A stretch of DNA of 37,203 bases from Aeromicrobium sp. (lineage in GTDB: Bacteria > Actinomycetota > Actinomycetes > Propionibacteriales > Nocardioidaceae): positions 1-37,203 of the forward strand of contig NZ_JAOPXQ010000033.1 of assembly GCF_025965075.1 (NCBI RefSeq), read 5' to 3'. Of the stretch, positions 28,218-37,203 are shown piece by piece. The position numbers were made by a program, and so were the translations under genes. Each line of letters begins with the position of its first letter. Within the stretch, counting starts at the first letter, position 1. The notes under the pieces are model-generated. The model was not told where the DNA came from. It worked only from the letters and a program-made list of their open reading frames with translations, and made no database searches.

Positions 28218-30518
28218 TCAGGCCCCGGGCGAGTCCACCCGCGGTGCGGCGATCGGGGCCAGGCCGTGCTGCCGCAGGCGCGCGACGGTCAGCTCGCGGT
28301 CGAGCGGCATGCCGTACAGATAGCCCTGGCCGTGCGTCGCCCCGGCCGCCCCGAGGACCTCGGCCTCGGACGGCTGCGTGATGCCCTCCGCCACGACCCA
28401 GAACCCCAGCTCGACCAGGAGCTCGGTGATGCGCGTGACGACCTTGGCCTGGCGCGGGTTGTCCAGGTCGATGACCAGCGAGCGGTCCAGCTTCACGGCG
28501 CTCGCCTCGGGCAGGTAGAGCGAGGCGATGTGCGCGTAGCCGGACCCGAAGTCGTCGATCGAGATCGCCACGCCGTGGGCCCCCAGACGTTCGGCGATCC
28601 GGGCGTGCGTGTCGGTCCACCGGCCGATCGAGCTCTCCGAGATCTCGATGATGGGGCGGATCCCGGACTGGGCCTCGCACTGCGCGATCCGCTCGACGAG
28701 CGGGCTCCAGGTCGCGATCTGCTCGATCTCGAGGTTGATCGCGAACTCGGTCATCTCCGGGGTGATCGACCGGCACTCGATCATCGTGGCGATGGCCTGG
28801 TCCAGCACCTGCAGCGTCAGGTCGTCGAGCAGGTTGAGCCGGATCGCGGACTCCACGATGATCGGCGGCGGGATCGAGCCGAGCTCGGGGTCGGTGTGGC
28901 GGACCAGCACCTCCATGCCCCGGATCTCGTCGACGTCGAGCCGGACGACCGGCTGGTACGCCGTGGCGAGGCGTCCGTCGACGATCGCGCGGCGCATCGT
29001 CTGGTCGATCCGCGACGCCATCTCGCCGTCGCGGGCGTGGATCGCGCGCTTGCGCTGGTACATCTGCTGGTCGGCGGCCCGGACGATGTCCTCCATGCTG
29101 TCGTCGGGGCTCGACGACATCGCCGACCCCATGCTGGCCCGGAGCCGGATCGTGTCCTCCCCGATCACGACGGGCTCGGCCACGAGCTGCTTGAGCCGCT
29201 CGCACTCGGCCGTGAGGGCGCCGTAGTCGGTGACGTCCCGGACCAGGAGCGCGAACTCGTCACCGCCGTAGCGGGTCACCGCCAGCCGGTCGCCGGTGTG
29301 GGCGAGCAGCCGCGACGCCACGACCTGGAGCGCCGTGTCGCCCGCAACGTGCCCGTAGCGGTCGTTGATCTCCTTGAAGCCGTCGAGGTCGATGAACACG
29401 ATCGCGATGGACTCCCCCGGCCGCCGGGAGGTGCTGACGCCCGCCAGCACCTCGCGGAAGTAGGTGTACGTCGACAGGCCCGTGAGGCCGTCGGTGTTGG
29501 CCCGGTCACGGAGCTCCTCGATCTGCTCGGACTCGCGGCGGGACCGGTCGGACATGTTGGCGAGCGCCTCGACGACGTTCATCTCGACCTGGGTGAAGGG
29601 CAGGTCGCCGGGCGACCGTCGGGCGACCACGAAGCGGCCGTCGACCAGCGGGACGCTGAAGTCCCACCGCGACCCCGGCTGGTCGCACACCTCGACCTGC
29701 TCGACCCGCAGGCCGCGGGCACCCCACCGCCCCAGGGTGCCGTCGATCAGCTCTCTCGGCCAGGGCATCGCCATCGCCGCGCCCGAGAGCGCCGCGACGC
29801 TGCGGTGCAGCTCCCGGTTGCGCATCAGGAGACCGACCCCGGTCGCGGCCATCCCGACGAACAGCACGACGATGCTCGGCCCGACCGGGAGCGACCGGTC
29901 GGCCTCGATCCACCGCAGGACGGACAGCAGGCAGCCGACGTAGAACACCAGGAGCCCGACCAGGAACGTCCACGTCCACCGCAGGCGCAGTCCACGGCCG
30001 TCCGCTGCGTCGGGCGCGACGTTGCGGCGGGCGAGCTCGAGCGCCGTGATGACGGCGAAGTACGTCGCGAGGCCCGTGAACACCCGGTCGTACGGCTGGT
30101 AGCCGATGTCGGTCACCTCGGCGGCCCGCACGAGCGCCGCCCCGCCGAGCACCTGGATCGCGGCGCGGAACTGGCCCCACGTCTCGTCGCGGTAGAACAC
30201 GGCATAGCTGATCGCCACGATGACGGCCCAGATCGGCAGGACCGAGGACTGGGACGTGACGTCGGAGGCGAACAGGGCCGCGGCCGACGCGCCCAGGGTC
30301 AGGTCGGTGGAGCCGCGCGAGATCGTGATCTGGGCGCGCACCGCGAGCGGCACGAGCAGGAGGGCCACGACCGAGACGACCGAGAGGTCCGGGAGACCCA
30401 GCCGCCACTGCGACGTGCGGAAGCAGATCGCGACCAGGGCGATGACCATGATGACGAGCTCGAACCGTCGCTCGGAGCGGTCGGGCGCCGCCCTCGGCGT
30501 GGATCGGAGAATGGCCAC
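28218..30518 (-). CDS. Membrane GGDEF-EAL protein (cyclic di-GMP turnover)
   Basis: GGDEF domains make and EAL domains degrade cyclic di-GMP. This 766-residue protein has about eight hydrophobic segments in the first 265 residues, then a region of about 90 residues that may be a sensor. A GGDEF domain follows with intact RYGGDEF (about 413-419), after FIDLDGFKEINDRYGH. The EAL domain reads EVLVRH instead of EALxR, but keeps the expected Asn (INLE), Glu (EISES), DDFG (about 653-656), Lys (VKLD), Glu (VAEGI) and QGYLYG, so phosphodiesterase activity is plausible. No RxxD inhibitory site precedes GGDEF. GTG 30518 lies five bases after TATCAT (30524-30529); the frame upstream of it looks non-coding. 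It is the only protein here likely to be catalytically active in cyclic di-GMP signalling. Confidence 0.88.
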   Translation of the reverse strand: MAILRSTPRAAPDRSERRFELVIMVIALVAICFRTSQWRLGLPDLSVVSVVALLLVPLAVRAQITISRGSTDLTLGASAAALFASDVTSQSSVLPIWAVIVAISYAVFYRDETWGQFRAAIQVLGGAALVRAAEVTDIGYQPYDRVFTGLATYFAVITALELARRNVAPDAADGRGLRLRWTWTFLVGLLVFYVGCLLSVLRWIEADRSLPVGPSIVVLFVGMAATGVGLLMRNRELHRSVAALSGAAMAMPWPRELIDGTLGRWGARGLRVEQVEVCDQPGSRWDFSVPLVDGRFVVARRSPGDLPFTQVEMNVVEALANMSDRSRRESEQIEELRDRANTDGLTGLSTYTYFREVLAGVSTSRRPGESIAIVFIDLDGFKEINDRYGHVAGDTALQVVASRLLAHTGDRLAVTRYGGDEFALLVRDVTDYGALTAECERLKQLVAEPVVIGEDTIRLRASMGSAMSSSPDDSMEDIVRAADQQMYQRKRAIHARDGEMASRIDQTMRRAIVDGRLATAYQPVVRLDVDEIRGMEVLVRHTDPELGSIPPPIIVESAIRLNLLDDLTLQVLDQAIATMIECRSITPEMTEFAINLEIEQIATWSPLVERIAQCEAQSGIRPIIEISESSIGRWTDTHARIAERLGAHGVAISIDDFGSGYAHIASLYLPEASAVKLDRSLVIDLDNPRQAKVVTRITELLVELGFWVVAEGITQPSEAEVLGAAGATHGQGYLYGMPLDRELTVARLRQHGLAPIAAPRVDSPGA

Positions 30519-30523
30519 GTCGA

Positions 30524-30529
30524 ATGATA
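30524..30529 (-). promoter_or_regulatory. -10 element of a leaderless promoter for the GGDEF-EAL gene
   Basis: TATCAT on the minus strand ends five bases before GTG 30518. This chooses the 766-residue start over an in-frame ATG much further upstream. Confidence 0.5.
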
Positions 30530-30686
30530 GGCCGAGCGGTGTCCAACGTCCCCGGAACCGTGATGATCCACGCCGACGGGGTACGCGTGACGGGACGCGT
30601 TCGGTTGTCCGCACGCTCACCCAGGTCACCTGCACCATCGCCGTTCGGCGGTCCATAATGGCAATTCATCGCTCCTCGGGAGGAAC

Positions 30687-31991
30687 GTGATCGTGTCTCG
30701 GCTGGCCCGGAGGTCCCAGGCCCTCCTCGCGGCCGCCCTGCTCACGGCGTCGATCCCCGTCGTGGTGTCCTCCCCCGCAGCAGCCGCCGACCCGTGCCCC
30801 GCCCCCGCGACCAGCTGTGTCGTCGTCAACATCGTCTCGACGGTCGACGGCCGGGAGACGGTCGACAAGTCGTACACCGTCACGCCCGACCAGGTCGCCG
30901 ACTGGGCCGACCTCCAGGACCCGGCCTACTACACCCGCAAGACGCCCGGCGCCAAGGAGGTACGCGGTCCCGTGGTCCCGCAGGGGCTGTCCCTGCACCA
31001 CCTGCTCGAGAGCGTGGACCCGGACGACGCCGGGCTCGGCTCGGCGGTCACGTTCTCCGAGACGCCCAACGCTGCGCATGTCCCCGCCGTGCTGTCCGAC
31101 GCCGACCTGGCCGACCCCAGCGGCAACGACTACCCGTTCGACGACAACCTGCCGCCCGCGGTCCACGTCACCGAGGACGGGATCGGCTACGTCCGGCCGC
31201 TGCGGGGCTCCCGTGACGACGTCAACGCCTCGGACATCTTCACGGTCAGCGGCGCGTTGGTCCTGACGTTCCACACGACCGGCAAGCTGCTCGAGCCGGC
31301 CGTCAAGGCCAGCGCCGGCACCGACGTCAAGACCAAGCAGAGGAACACGTTCTCGGTGACGTTCGCCAACGCGCCCGGCACCCGGATCATCTCGACGCGG
31401 TGGGACTTCGGCGACGGCAGGACCGCCGACGCGGAGAAGGCGACCCGGTCGTACGCCACAAAGGGCACCTATCCCGTCGTCGCGACGGTGCGCGGCGCCA
31501 ACGGCTCCTACGGACGTACGCCCGCCCTCGAGGTCAAGGTCGCCAAGCCGCCCACGGCGCCCAGCTCGGGCACGGGCGGCGGCACCGGCGGCGGTACTGG
31601 AGGCGGGGGCACCGGCGGAGGATTCGGTGGCGGCGGTGTGGGCGGCGGCTACGTCCCGCCGTTCGACCCGGGCGTCGGCAGCCTGCCCGGAGCGGTCCCG
31701 GACGAGGGATCGCCGCTCGACGACCAGTCCGGCCCGGTCGACGACGGCCTCCAGCAGGTCGAGGGCTACGTCCTGGCTGGCGCGGAGATCGCCCCGGGCG
31801 GCACGGTCGAGCGCATCCCCGGCACCCGGGACACGCCCGAGACGGCCGCGGCGACTCAGGCGTCCAGGCGGCGCGAGATCACGACCTGGGCGGTGGCCGC
31901 GGTCGCCGTGGTCCTGCTCCTCGGCGCGGGAGCCGCCAGTGAGACTCGATGGATCCGGACCCACCTGCGCCACCTCAGGAGACGTGCATGA
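30687..31991 (+). CDS. Exported PKD-domain protein with C-terminal membrane anchor
   Basis: The 434-residue product has a signal peptide (LLAAALLTASIPVVVSSPAA), cleaved near residue 34. An N-terminal domain of about 170 residues follows that I cannot assign firmly; GLSLHHLLESVDPDD and GIGYVRPLRGSRDDVNASD vaguely recall the molybdopterin-oxidoreductase (sulfite-oxidase) fold. A PKD domain (about 205-285) has its hallmark WDFGDG at 239-244. A Gly-rich linker spans 295-321. An extracytoplasmic stretch precedes a C-terminal helix (398-417) and a short Arg-rich cytoplasmic tail. GTG 30687 is three bases after GGAGGA; GTG 30693 has better spacing and is a real alternative. The stop overlaps the next ATG (ATGA). 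It is the first gene of a coupled trio with an ExbB-like channel, so it may be the outward arm of that complex. Role unknown. Confidence 0.75.
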   Translation: MIVSRLARRSQALLAAALLTASIPVVVSSPAAAADPCPAPATSCVVVNIVSTVDGRETVDKSYTVTPDQVADWADLQDPAYYTRKTPGAKEVRGPVVPQGLSLHHLLESVDPDDAGLGSAVTFSETPNAAHVPAVLSDADLADPSGNDYPFDDNLPPAVHVTEDGIGYVRPLRGSRDDVNASDIFTVSGALVLTFHTTGKLLEPAVKASAGTDVKTKQRNTFSVTFANAPGTRIISTRWDFGDGRTADAEKATRSYATKGTYPVVATVRGANGSYGRTPALEVKVAKPPTAPSSGTGGGTGGGTGGGGTGGGFGGGGVGGGYVPPFDPGVGSLPGAVPDEGSPLDDQSGPVDDGLQQVEGYVLAGAEIAPGGTVERIPGTRDTPETAAATQASRRREITTWAVAAVAVVLLLGAGAASETRWIRTHLRHLRRRA

Positions 31992-32794
31992 GCGACAACA
32001 TCTACGACATCATCTTCCGCGTTGCGAAGGTGCTGGAGCTCCCGGTCGTGATCTTGACGCTGCTGGCCCTCGCGGCGGTGCTGGTCGAGCTCGGGGCGTT
32101 CATCACCGAGCTCATCCGGCGTCGCAGCCGCAGATTCAGCTCGCTGGCCAGGGCCGGCGCCGCGGCGCGACGCGCGGTGGACGCCGGGCGTACGGACGAG
32201 GCGTCCGCCCTGCTGCAGAAGGTCGCGTGGAGCGCGCCGATCGGCAAGGCGTTCACGGTCCTGGTCGACGCGGTCAGCAAGCCCGGGGCTGACATCCGCA
32301 TCAACAAGCAGCTCGCGGACTTCGACTTCGGCCGCCAGGCCCGGCTCGGCCGGACCCGCCTGCTGGTGCGGATCGGCCCGGCACTGGGCCTGATGGGGAC
32401 CCTGATTCCGCTGACCCCCGCGCTCGATGGCCTGGCCCGCGGTGACGTCGACACGCTGACGGAGAACCTGCGGCTCGCGTTCAGCATCACGGTCCTGGGC
32501 ATCCTGGTCGGCGCGCTCGCGCTGCTGCTGTCGCTGGTGCGGGAACGGTTGTACGGTCAGGACTTCTCCGATCTCGAGTACGTCGCGGCGATCCTCACCG
32601 ACGACGGCTCGGCCGCGGCGTCGATCCTGCCGGACACCGCGCCGGCCCCGACGCACGTCAGCTCCGCGGTCCCGCCGCCGGCGCACACCAGCACCTCCTC
32701 GCTGGACACTCCCCCGCCGGTGGTGAGCTCGGCCGACGCCGTCCAGGTCCCGCGCCTCGCCCCACCGGACTCGACGACGGAGCGCCGCCCATGA
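31988..32794 (+). CDS. MotA/TolQ/ExbB-family proton channel protein
   Basis: TolQ/ExbB/MotA proteins form pentameric inner-membrane channels that turn ion flow into mechanical work. The 268-residue protein has three hydrophobic segments (about 17-40, 124-145 and 163-184). A cytoplasmic domain lies between the first two, and the family core GPALGLMGTLIPLTPALDGL is followed by TENLRLAFSITVLGILVGAL. A Pro/Ser/Thr-rich tail of about 55 residues ends it, predicted cytoplasmic. ATG 31988 has AGGAG six bases upstream and overlaps the preceding stop; its own stop overlaps the next start (ATGA). Its partner is the DUF2149 protein downstream, as in methanogen clusters known to me that pair the two. No tonB or ompA partner is present, as expected without an outer membrane. 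Confidence 0.88.
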   Translation: MSDNIYDIIFRVAKVLELPVVILTLLALAAVLVELGAFITELIRRRSRRFSSLARAGAAARRAVDAGRTDEASALLQKVAWSAPIGKAFTVLVDAVSKPGADIRINKQLADFDFGRQARLGRTRLLVRIGPALGLMGTLIPLTPALDGLARGDVDTLTENLRLAFSITVLGILVGALALLLSLVRERLYGQDFSDLEYVAAILTDDGSAAASILPDTAPAPTHVSSAVPPPAHTSTSSLDTPPPVVSSADAVQVPRLAPPDSTTERRP

Positions 32795-33189
32795 TCACCG
32801 TCACCCCCCGCGCCCGCATCCGGCAGGAGCACGCCGGCGACCCCCTCGACGGCCTGGTCAACATGTTCGACATCGGCATCGTGCTGGCCGTGGCGTTCCT
32901 GCTGGCCGCGCTGTCCTCGCTCGGCCTGTCCGACGCCGTCAACGACGGTGGGCTCACCAAGCCCGCGCTCGGCGAGGTCACGATCAAGCCCGGCGAGACG
33001 CTCGAGGACGTCCCGGACGAGGGCGTCAAGACCGTGGGTCGGGGCACCCCGGTGGGCACGGTCTACCGCCTCGCGGACGGCCGGCTGGTCTACGTCACCG
33101 GCGGCGGCTCGGCCACCCCCCAGGCACCCACGCCGACCCCCACGCCGGGGACGACCGGGACCCCGTCGGTCCCGACCCCGACACCCTGA
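32791..33189 (+). CDS. DUF2149 family, ExbD/TolR-like single-helix protein
   Basis: This 132-residue protein has a short cytoplasmic N-terminus and one helix (about 25-45). An exported domain (ALGEVTIKPGETLEDVPDE, then GTPVGTVYRLADGRLVYVTG) precedes a Pro/Thr tail (TPTPTPGTTGTPSVPTPTP). Asp27, in NMFDIGIVLAVAFLL, sits at the start of the helix, just where ExbD and TolR have their essential proton-carrying Asp. I assign it to DUF2149 from overall pattern and from its place beside a TolQ/ExbB-like gene. The start overlaps the previous stop (ATGA). Together the two should form a stator or motor unit. The tail is outside the membrane and may be O-mannosylated or cross the cell wall. Confidence 0.75.
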   Translation: MITVTPRARIRQEHAGDPLDGLVNMFDIGIVLAVAFLLAALSSLGLSDAVNDGGLTKPALGEVTIKPGETLEDVPDEGVKTVGRGTPVGTVYRLADGRLVYVTGGGSATPQAPTPTPTPGTTGTPSVPTPTP

Positions 33190-36650: not shown

Positions 36651-37203
36651 CTATCCGACGAGCTGGACCGTCTGGCAATCGATCTTCCCGTGGACCCTCA
36701 CGTCGGTCTGGGCGATCTTCACGCCGAGCAGGCTGAAGACGGGATAAAGGAGAGTGGACAGCAACGTGTTGACCGGTCCATTGACCAGCGGCAACACGAT
36801 GCCGCTCACGATGGCATTCAGCAGCGGCGCCAGGAGGGCGCCGAGCAAATCCCCCAGAAGACTGCCTGAGAGAAGGGAGACCGTGGTGTCCTTGACCTGC
36901 AGATTGAGGACGTTGGACGTCGCGGACACAGATTGAGACGGAATCGACGTGCCGCTTGAGGACGCCGCGAACGTGAGATCGGTAGGCCCACCTTGGCCGG
37001 CCGTAGCACCGATTTGAGCCTTGACCGCCAGCAGCTTGTTGCCCAAGAGCAACTTGAGTGCCGCGACGGTCACCGGTCCCAGCAGCGGGAGGTCGTCCCA
37101 ATTGGCGAGGTTGAGACTCAGGAGTGCGAGGTGATCGGGGGTTGACGGACCGTAGACCGACGCCAGACCGGTCTTGGCACGGATCACGGCCTTGCTGGGA
37201 GCG
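36651..37203 (-). CDS. C-terminal part of an unrecognised, probably exported protein (cut by right edge)
   Basis: The frame is open from the right edge to TAG at 36651, at least 184 residues; the start lies outside. It reads VIRAKTGLASVYGPSTPDHL, then ANWDDLPLLGPVTVAALKLL. A Ser/Thr-rich beta-like region (DLTFAASSSGTSIPSQSVSA) leads to a long hydrophobic Leu-rich stretch (SLLSGSLLGDLLGALLAPLL), ending TDVRVHGKIDCQTVQLVG. The hydrophobic part has many Gly, Pro and Asn residues and may be amphipathic rather than membrane-spanning. The ending resembles C-termini of some actinobacterial TadG-like pilus or surface proteins, which is only an impression. Codon use is slightly less GC-rich than in neighbours. 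Its stop is only 12 bases from the alkB -35 box, so transcription from this gene could read into alkB. Confidence 0.6.
   Translation of the reverse strand, partial: APSKAVIRAKTGLASVYGPSTPDHLALLSLNLANWDDLPLLGPVTVAALKLLLGNKLLAVKAQIGATAGQGGPTDLTFAASSSGTSIPSQSVSATSNVLNLQVKDTTVSLLSGSLLGDLLGALLAPLLNAIVSGIVLPLVNGPVNTLLSTLLYPVFSLLGVKIAQTDVRVHGKIDCQTVQLVG

Follow-up and report, generated by a model that had tools for sequence, protein, structure and literature searches.

In a 37,203-nt stretch of DNA from Aeromicrobium sp. (assembly GCF_025965075.1, contig NZ_JAOPXQ010000033.1, positions 1 to 37,203, forward strand; the window hereafter), three plus-strand genes spanning 30687-33189 encode an exported protein with a PKD domain, an ExbB-like channel protein and a DUF2149 protein. 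The main new evidence on this trio comes from elsewhere, in that relatives repeatedly carry the same set within operons for importers of the metal or cofactor type. A role in nutrient capture is probable because these relatives hold the set inside metal-compound uptake operons. For the more specific reading that we favor we judge the case evenly balanced: the trio would form an ExbB/ExbD-like unit, powered by protons (or ions), that, with neither TonB nor an outer membrane, helps an anchored surface protein to capture metals or cofactors. That the host has no outer membrane follows from its lineage.

Importer operons around the trio in relatives

The gene order TupA-PKD-ExbB-DUF2149-TupB-TupC recurs at five loci, L013 and L023 (genus g5, same family as the window) and L109, L116 and L117 (class of genome G528, another class of the same phylum); at L109 the ATPase gene is followed by another TupB-like gene. 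TupA, PKD and ExbB genes at a contig edge (L099) make a sixth genome with a Tup-like context, which is found in two actinobacterial classes. The top NCBIfam model for the substrate-binding protein is TupA at L013, L023 and L099 (80.8, 91.3 and 55.8 bits, cut-off 400). The permease at L023 is matched first by the ABC_perm1 subfamily (154.2, cut-off 100) and then by TupB (121.7, cut-off 320), and the same locus has a MerR-TOBE protein whose Mop score of 51.9 bits lies slightly under the cut-off of 55. Judged by sequence, these importers appear to be divergent Tup-like systems that would carry tungstate, molybdate or another substrate. In all five loci with the full order, the trio is interleaved with genes resembling those of the TupABC/WtpABC tungstate-molybdate importers; to our knowledge, known Tup systems have no ExbB, DUF2149 or PKD protein. 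Among 149 genomes of the family a TupA-like protein was found in four, three of which also have the trio, complete or in part, with the genes adjacent; set against the 13 genomes with the trio or part of it, this overlap (3/4) has a hypergeometric probability of 0.002, uncorrected for relatedness. The fourth genome (G003, locus L100) possesses Tup-like genes and no trio.

Importers of other families also adjoin the PKD trio, namely FecB/FecCD genes at L118 and L122 and, at L133, an anchored-repeat ATP-binding cassette (ABC) importer whose ATPase scores 359.4 bits with TIGR03771 (cut-off 268.8). We surveyed 63 ExbB loci taken from genomes with matches, some of them cut by contig ends, so that the figures are sample counts and not rates. 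Within 6 kb of these loci lie TupA (6 loci), FecB or FecCD (6), S and T components of energy-coupling factor (ECF) transporters (5), CobN with an HmuT-like gene (3) and anchored-repeat surface proteins (1), giving importer or CobN genes at 21/63, a count that leaves out loci with an ABC ATPase alone. Five loci were dropped before counting (L048-L050, DUF2149 below cut-off; L041 and L140, no seed-model match), and L051, L053 and L054, taken to be duplicates of genomes already in the set, were not counted twice. HtaA-like labels for L122 and L139 could not be confirmed and were dropped.

Two further kinds of locus combine ExbB and DUF2149 genes with other partners. At L103 (9552-14510), L105, L111, L137 and L138 the pair has as neighbors an ECF transporter (S, T and ATPase) and a squalene-cyclase-like (alpha/alpha toroid) protein, joined at L137 by a DUF4430 lipoprotein. 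We take these loci to resemble transcobalamin-type B12 binding, which would make them a Gram-positive B12 capture system. At L038-L040, which are actinobacterial and outside the class of the window, CobN-like, HmuT-like, ExbB and DUF2149 genes stand together; by eye, we also saw chelatase-ATPase-like genes (L040) and genes resembling FeoA/FeoB (L038 and L041). Their gene content would make L038-L041 a heme or tetrapyrrole system of Hmu type that exists beyond Bacteroidota.

Gain and loss of the trio as one unit

DUF2149 was found in 12/149 genomes of the family (the window's own, nine others in its genus and two in genus g5), and tblastn located the PKD, ExbB and DUF2149 genes together in 11/11 relatives bearing DUF2149. 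Because of this occurrence, with all three genes together in 11 relatives, we do not regard the trio as a chance arrangement. The PKD gene lies directly upstream of ExbB at 28 of the 63 ExbB loci, including all 15 of the window's family; the initial annotation of this DNA had made the PKD gene part of the set, and its co-occurrence in relatives bears this out. A squalene-cyclase-like protein is encoded directly upstream of ExbB at 13/63 loci and ~5 kb upstream at 2 more. The N-terminal domain of the PKD protein was found in 11/149 genomes, comprising the ten DUF2149-bearing members of the genus and G018, where TupA, PKD and ExbB lie at a contig start and DUF2149 was not seen; in the two g5 genomes the PKD protein is present by tblastn, its N-terminal domain being too diverged for the domain query. 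DUF2149 also occurs in 46/299 genomes of the G528 class. As a lone query over genome contigs, the DUF2149 protein gave five loci, all Aeromicrobium, where an alignment query would reach further. We found no plasmid copies of DUF2149.

Presence within the genus is patchy, at 10/37 genomes (set up to G148, taken as the 149-genome sample). In four trio-less Aeromicrobium loci (L199-L202), picked for having AlkB, which was found in 29/49 genomes of the genus, the slot that the trio would occupy, with the PMT gene on one side and the tetR/rubredoxin reductase/alkB genes on the other, contains none of its three genes (4/4), and 47 to 1391 bases separate the aligned ends of the PMT and TetR genes. 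Since the three genes are jointly present in relatives and jointly missing from this slot, they are gained or lost as one unit, which is not bound to the alkB neighborhood. A tie to the adjacent alkane-oxidation genes was rejected because TetR, rubredoxin reductase and AlkB remain in 4/4 trio-less loci. Overlapping junctions of the form ATGA, GTGA or TTGA join PKD to ExbB in 21/26 pairs lying within 200 bases (the L042 pair is outside this count) and ExbB to DUF2149 in 44/56. In the window the sequence reads ATGA at both junctions, and the two overlaps that the initial annotation had described at 30687-33189 were found at exactly these coordinates.

Ten genes neighboring the trio were scanned with Pfam. 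MetG, RsmI, a PMT-family mannosyltransferase and a GGDEF-EAL protein flank it on one side; on the other side are TetR, a rubredoxin-reductase-type flavoprotein, two rubredoxins, a fatty-acid-desaturase-family protein, which we take to be AlkB, and a protein without a Pfam match (36651-37202) that runs to the window end. The GGDEF-EAL gene (28218-30656) is divergent from the trio, and just three of the ten Aeromicrobium trio loci compared (the window, L018 and L020) have it beside the trio, so we do not count it as part of the unit. No TonB, Tol, OmpA or flagellar families were detected among the ten neighbors, the rest of the genome not having been searched, which agrees with the earlier statement that no such genes are nearby. 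PADLOC returned no anti-phage defense match.

Components of the proposed unit

The features of the trio, all on the plus strand, are as follows.

30678..30683, +, ribosome-binding-site-like GGGAGG ahead of the GTG start of the PKD gene (sequence read directly)
30687..31991, +, exported, C-terminally anchored PKD protein, 434 amino acids, GTG start (Pfam, hydropathy, structure model)
30816..31274, +, N-terminal alpha/beta domain of the PKD protein, residues 44-196, without Pfam family (structure model, Foldseek, hhalign)
31296..31544, +, PKD domain, residues 204-286 (Pfam, VIA-align)
31551..31850, +, Gly/Pro-rich linker of the PKD protein, for the most part disordered (model confidence)
31878..31934, +, C-terminal membrane helix of the PKD protein, followed by a basic tail (hydropathy, model)
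31988..32794, +, ExbB/TolQ/MotA-family channel protein, 268 amino acids, three hydrophobic segments (Pfam, hhalign, hydropathy)
32399..32401, +, codon of Thr138, at the ExbB Thr148 position (hhalign; kept in 61/63 copies)
32489..32491, +, codon of Thr168, at the ExbB Thr181 position (hhalign; kept in 62/63 copies)
32791..33189, +, DUF2149 protein, 132 amino acids, one membrane helix, Pro/Thr-rich tail (Pfam, model, hydropathy)
32869..32871, +, codon of Asp27, at the ExbD Asp25 position (alignment; kept in 52/56 copies)

All three products exceed their Pfam cut-offs, with 53.9 bits for PKD_4 (cut-off 27), 31.1 for MotA_ExbB (PF01618; 22.9) and 56.5 for DUF2149 (PF09919; 27.1). The initial annotation had called the second product a TolQ/ExbB/MotA-type channel, and several comparisons agree with it. 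Its three hydrophobic segments match the topology of ExbB, and a profile of 24 sequences aligned to an ExbB/TolQ profile of seven sequences (Gram-negatives and a cyanobacterium) with 95.5% probability over 182 columns in hhalign, a score reached neither by the reversed target nor by any of 60 column-shuffled targets (0/60), column shuffling being a lenient control. T148 and T181 of ExbB are pore-lining threonines, and the corresponding Thr138 and Thr168 are almost invariably kept. By sequence, the protein is a member of the MotA/TolQ/ExbB family.

The DUF2149 protein has one hydropathic segment (residues 28-46), and Asp27 falls on Asp25 of ExbD both in a single-sequence alignment (19.3%) and in a 21-column hhalign match to eight ExbD/TolR sequences (36.9%; 32.3% on re-run, with a score reached by 0/60 shuffles). 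The proposed placement of Asp27 at the ExbD/TolR aspartate therefore stands. Of the structural likeness to ExbD/TolR that had been expected, the membrane-segment match was recovered, and no solved ExbD or TolR structure appeared among the profile matches. The protein thus appears to resemble ExbD in its membrane segment only, and we do not claim membership of the ExbD family. Across 56 copies, Asp17 and Asn24 are invariant (56/56 each) and Asp27 is kept in 52/56. These copies are the seed-model matches, with distant copies in L038-L041 and L045-L047 outside the count; a 30-row alignment showing Asp27 in every row had left out four loci without it, and the 56-copy count is used in its place.

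Hydropathy of the PKD protein agrees with the predicted exported, anchored form, showing a signal-like segment at residues 13-31 and a single C-terminal segment at 398-416 followed by the basic tail. Its model is confident over residues ~40-290, mostly below 50 in predicted local distance difference test (pLDDT) over 306-391, and helical over 389-433. The PKD domain resembles those of collagenases and of an archaeal S-layer protein in VIA-align (collagenase PKD 4jrw: Z 13.6, root-mean-square deviation 1.8, 86 aligned residues); such matches filled the VIA-align table, which is uninformative on folds for residues 44-196. No Pfam family covers these N-terminal residues in 28 homologues scanned. 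Foldseek returned, amid PKD structures, SorT sulfite dehydrogenase (E 3.7e-6; template modeling scores 0.20/0.23) and sulfite oxidase (5.1e-5). Alignment of the N-terminal domain with 12 actinobacterial PF00174 sequences gave an hhalign probability of 23.4%, and of 4.7% on re-run, a score reached by 0/60 column-shuffled targets; a search of the PDB with the domain profile gave chance-level matches only, including sulfite:cytochrome c oxidoreductase (E 0.96). The cysteine of sulfite-oxidase-type enzymes is a molybdenum ligand and is invariant in 12/12 PF00174 rows; the PKD protein has no cysteine at the aligned place, and its only two cysteines, residues 37 and 44, lie where the N-terminal domain begins. 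With low to moderate confidence, we consider this domain a possible remote, cofactor-less relative of the sulfite-oxidase molybdenum-domain fold.

The components have precedents in two known systems. With the ExbB-ExbD and TolQ-TolR 5:2 motors the trio shares both pore threonines and a one-helix partner with an aspartate at the Asp25 position, whereas DUF2149 is not Pfam ExbD and a PKD protein takes the place of TonB/TolA, neither of which was found among the ten neighbors scanned. According to a review of the 5:2 motors, ExbBD is considered characteristic of Gram-negatives, and the way in which Ton orthologues would operate in Gram-positives without ExbD is an open question (PMC9389320). A link between DUF2149 and TolQ in methanogens is noted in PMC9425974; the initial annotation had mentioned DUF2149 next to ExbB-like genes in these organisms. 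What that annotation missed is that the same adjacent ExbB-like and DUF2149 pair constitutes HmuU and HmuV in an uptake operon, the hmu heme operon of Bacteroidota, and that the trio of relatives is in importer operons. In hmuYRSTUV, expression of which is raised at low iron, a MotA/TolQ/ExbB protein and a DUF2149 protein occupy the U and V places (PMC10434189). Accounts of their function differ: HmuU and HmuV are called ExbB/ExbD-like and assumed to power HmuR with TonB (PMC10100974), the function of HmuT is described as unclear (PMC12583661), and HmuV is said to lack homology to any known family, with HmuTUV presumed to move heme across the inner membrane (PMC13227078). That operon has HmuY, HmuS, HmuT and the outer-membrane receptor HmuR and no PKD protein; the window trio has no outer membrane to act on and no HmuS/CobN or HmuT gene that we could find within 6 kb. 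The literature searched, with most subscription journals outside the search, describes in its accessible text no actinobacterial PKD-ExbB-DUF2149 trio and no Tup link.

These features suggest how the unit may work. The ExbB-like protein would be the channel ring and DUF2149 the inner helix relaying ions through Asp27, while the PKD protein, held by its C-terminal helix, would provide the extracytoplasmic part, with an N-terminal sensing or binding domain and a PKD stalk carried by an extended, flexible linker. The flow of ions would shift or reset the anchored PKD protein, allowing it to capture a metal compound or metal cofactor in short supply and hand it to an importer. The genes, their joint gain and loss, the channel threonines, the alignment of Asp27, the domain layout and the repeated importer-operon setting in relatives are observations, from which we infer that the unit conducts ions, assembles and is coupled to the PKD protein, as well as the substrates and their delivery. 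The ion-driven machine of the initial annotation is to this extent partly supported; the force-bearing reach of the PKD protein to the cell wall, which that annotation also put forward, is a proposal.

Weighing the readings

Several results weigh against a proton- or ion-driven unit for capture. The TupA and TupB scores lie far under the NCBIfam equivalog cut-offs, 42/63 ExbB loci have no sought importer or CobN within 6 kb, and 35 of the 63 lack a PKD gene directly upstream of ExbB, having a squalene-cyclase-like partner, an HmuT-like one or none that we recognized. The sought importer families were found within 6 kb of 0/12 Aeromicrobium trio loci, and a search with a TupA-like profile gave no match in the Aeromicrobium genomes that carry the trio, the window's own (~92% complete) included. 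The DUF2149 protein has no Pfam match to ExbD (PF02472) up to E 10, its profile finds no ExbD or TolR in the PDB up to the same E, and its weak model (mean pLDDT 68.5), in which a short helix and a hairpin at 89-103 follow the membrane helix, has no recognizable ExbD periplasmic domain. Asp27 is replaced by Val, Thr, Tyr and Tyr at L112, L113, L114 and L119, respectively, and all four of these loci have squalene-cyclase-like partners; they may encode passive forms of the motor or reflect assembly errors. The leniency of the column shuffles belongs with these points. Loci L102, L107 and L108 have the same partner type yet are not among the Asp27 exceptions.

Candidate partners in Aeromicrobium were tried and set aside. 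TupABC was rejected as the partner in the window's genome, where no such TupA was found; the TupA-like proteins of relatives are divergent. Choice_anch_M anchored-repeat surface proteins occur in 0/10 trio genomes and 4/27 others, and the heme-binding HtaA domain is rarer with the trio (3/10) than without it (21/27; Fisher p 0.017, uncorrected for phylogeny). CobN is present in the window's genome only on contig C136, away from the trio. We thus found no importer partner for the Aeromicrobium trio, and its substrate may differ from that of its relatives.

Loci without a sought importer within 6 kb, which comprise the 12 of Aeromicrobium together with L042, L043, L104, L110, L115, L130 and L131, would be accommodated by a proton-driven envelope or cell-wall machine of Tol-Pal or MotAB type, in which PKD binds wall or surface polymers, the linker spans the wall and the importers are a side story. 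The ExbB/TolQ/MotA membership of the channel protein and the likeness of its partner's PKD domain to collagenase and S-layer domains are in keeping with such a machine. We nevertheless regard it as unlikely: no OmpA/MotB-type or TonB/TolA domain was found in the trio or the ten scanned neighbors, repeated insertion within tupABC-like operons is unexpected for a general envelope function, and presence in 10/37 genomes of the genus is patchy. Somewhat less probable again is a complex signaling ion flux or metal status, whose PKD N-terminal domain would sense an extracellular ligand, gate the channel and regulate transport or expression. The possible sulfite-oxidase-fold likeness of that domain, the MerR-TOBE regulator beside the tup-linked copy in L023 and the loss of Asp27 in 4/56 copies are compatible with signaling, but Pfam finds no signaling output domain in the trio, and the kept pore threonines and gene starts overlapping with ExbB suggest a stoichiometric motor. 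True membership of an Hmu heme-iron system (HmuTUV without HmuS, handling heme or tetrapyrrole) is improbable, given that no CobN or HmuT-like gene was found within 6 kb of a PKD-type trio and HtaA is rarer with it within Aeromicrobium, even though HmuU and HmuV are ExbB-like and DUF2149 proteins, L038-L040 keep CobN-like, HmuT-like, ExbB and DUF2149 genes together and the window's genome has CobN on another contig.

The reading of the trio as an ion-driven unit for capture could be extended, more tentatively, to a general module. ExbB-DUF2149 may fill the place of ExbB-ExbD in bacteria that lack an outer membrane, energizing anchored capture proteins of PKD, squalene-cyclase-like and CobN types for ABC or ECF importers of metals or metal cofactors. 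Were this so, HmuU and HmuV of Bacteroidota would act in the inner membrane on partners of their own and not through TonB. An inner-membrane heme role of HmuTUV is already presumed (PMC13227078); a shared motor principle was not found in the accessible text of the literature searched.

Motors of the ExbB/ExbD type are understood as reaching the outer membrane or, in MotAB, as turning the flagellum. If the reading of the trio as a capture unit is true, proton-motive force would also be used outside the membrane for nutrient capture in monoderm actinobacteria. It would give a testable reading of HmuT, HmuU and HmuV in the heme operon of gut Bacteroidota, three proteins to which the literature consulted assigns unclear or presumed roles, and would provide DUF2149 with a concrete functional hypothesis.

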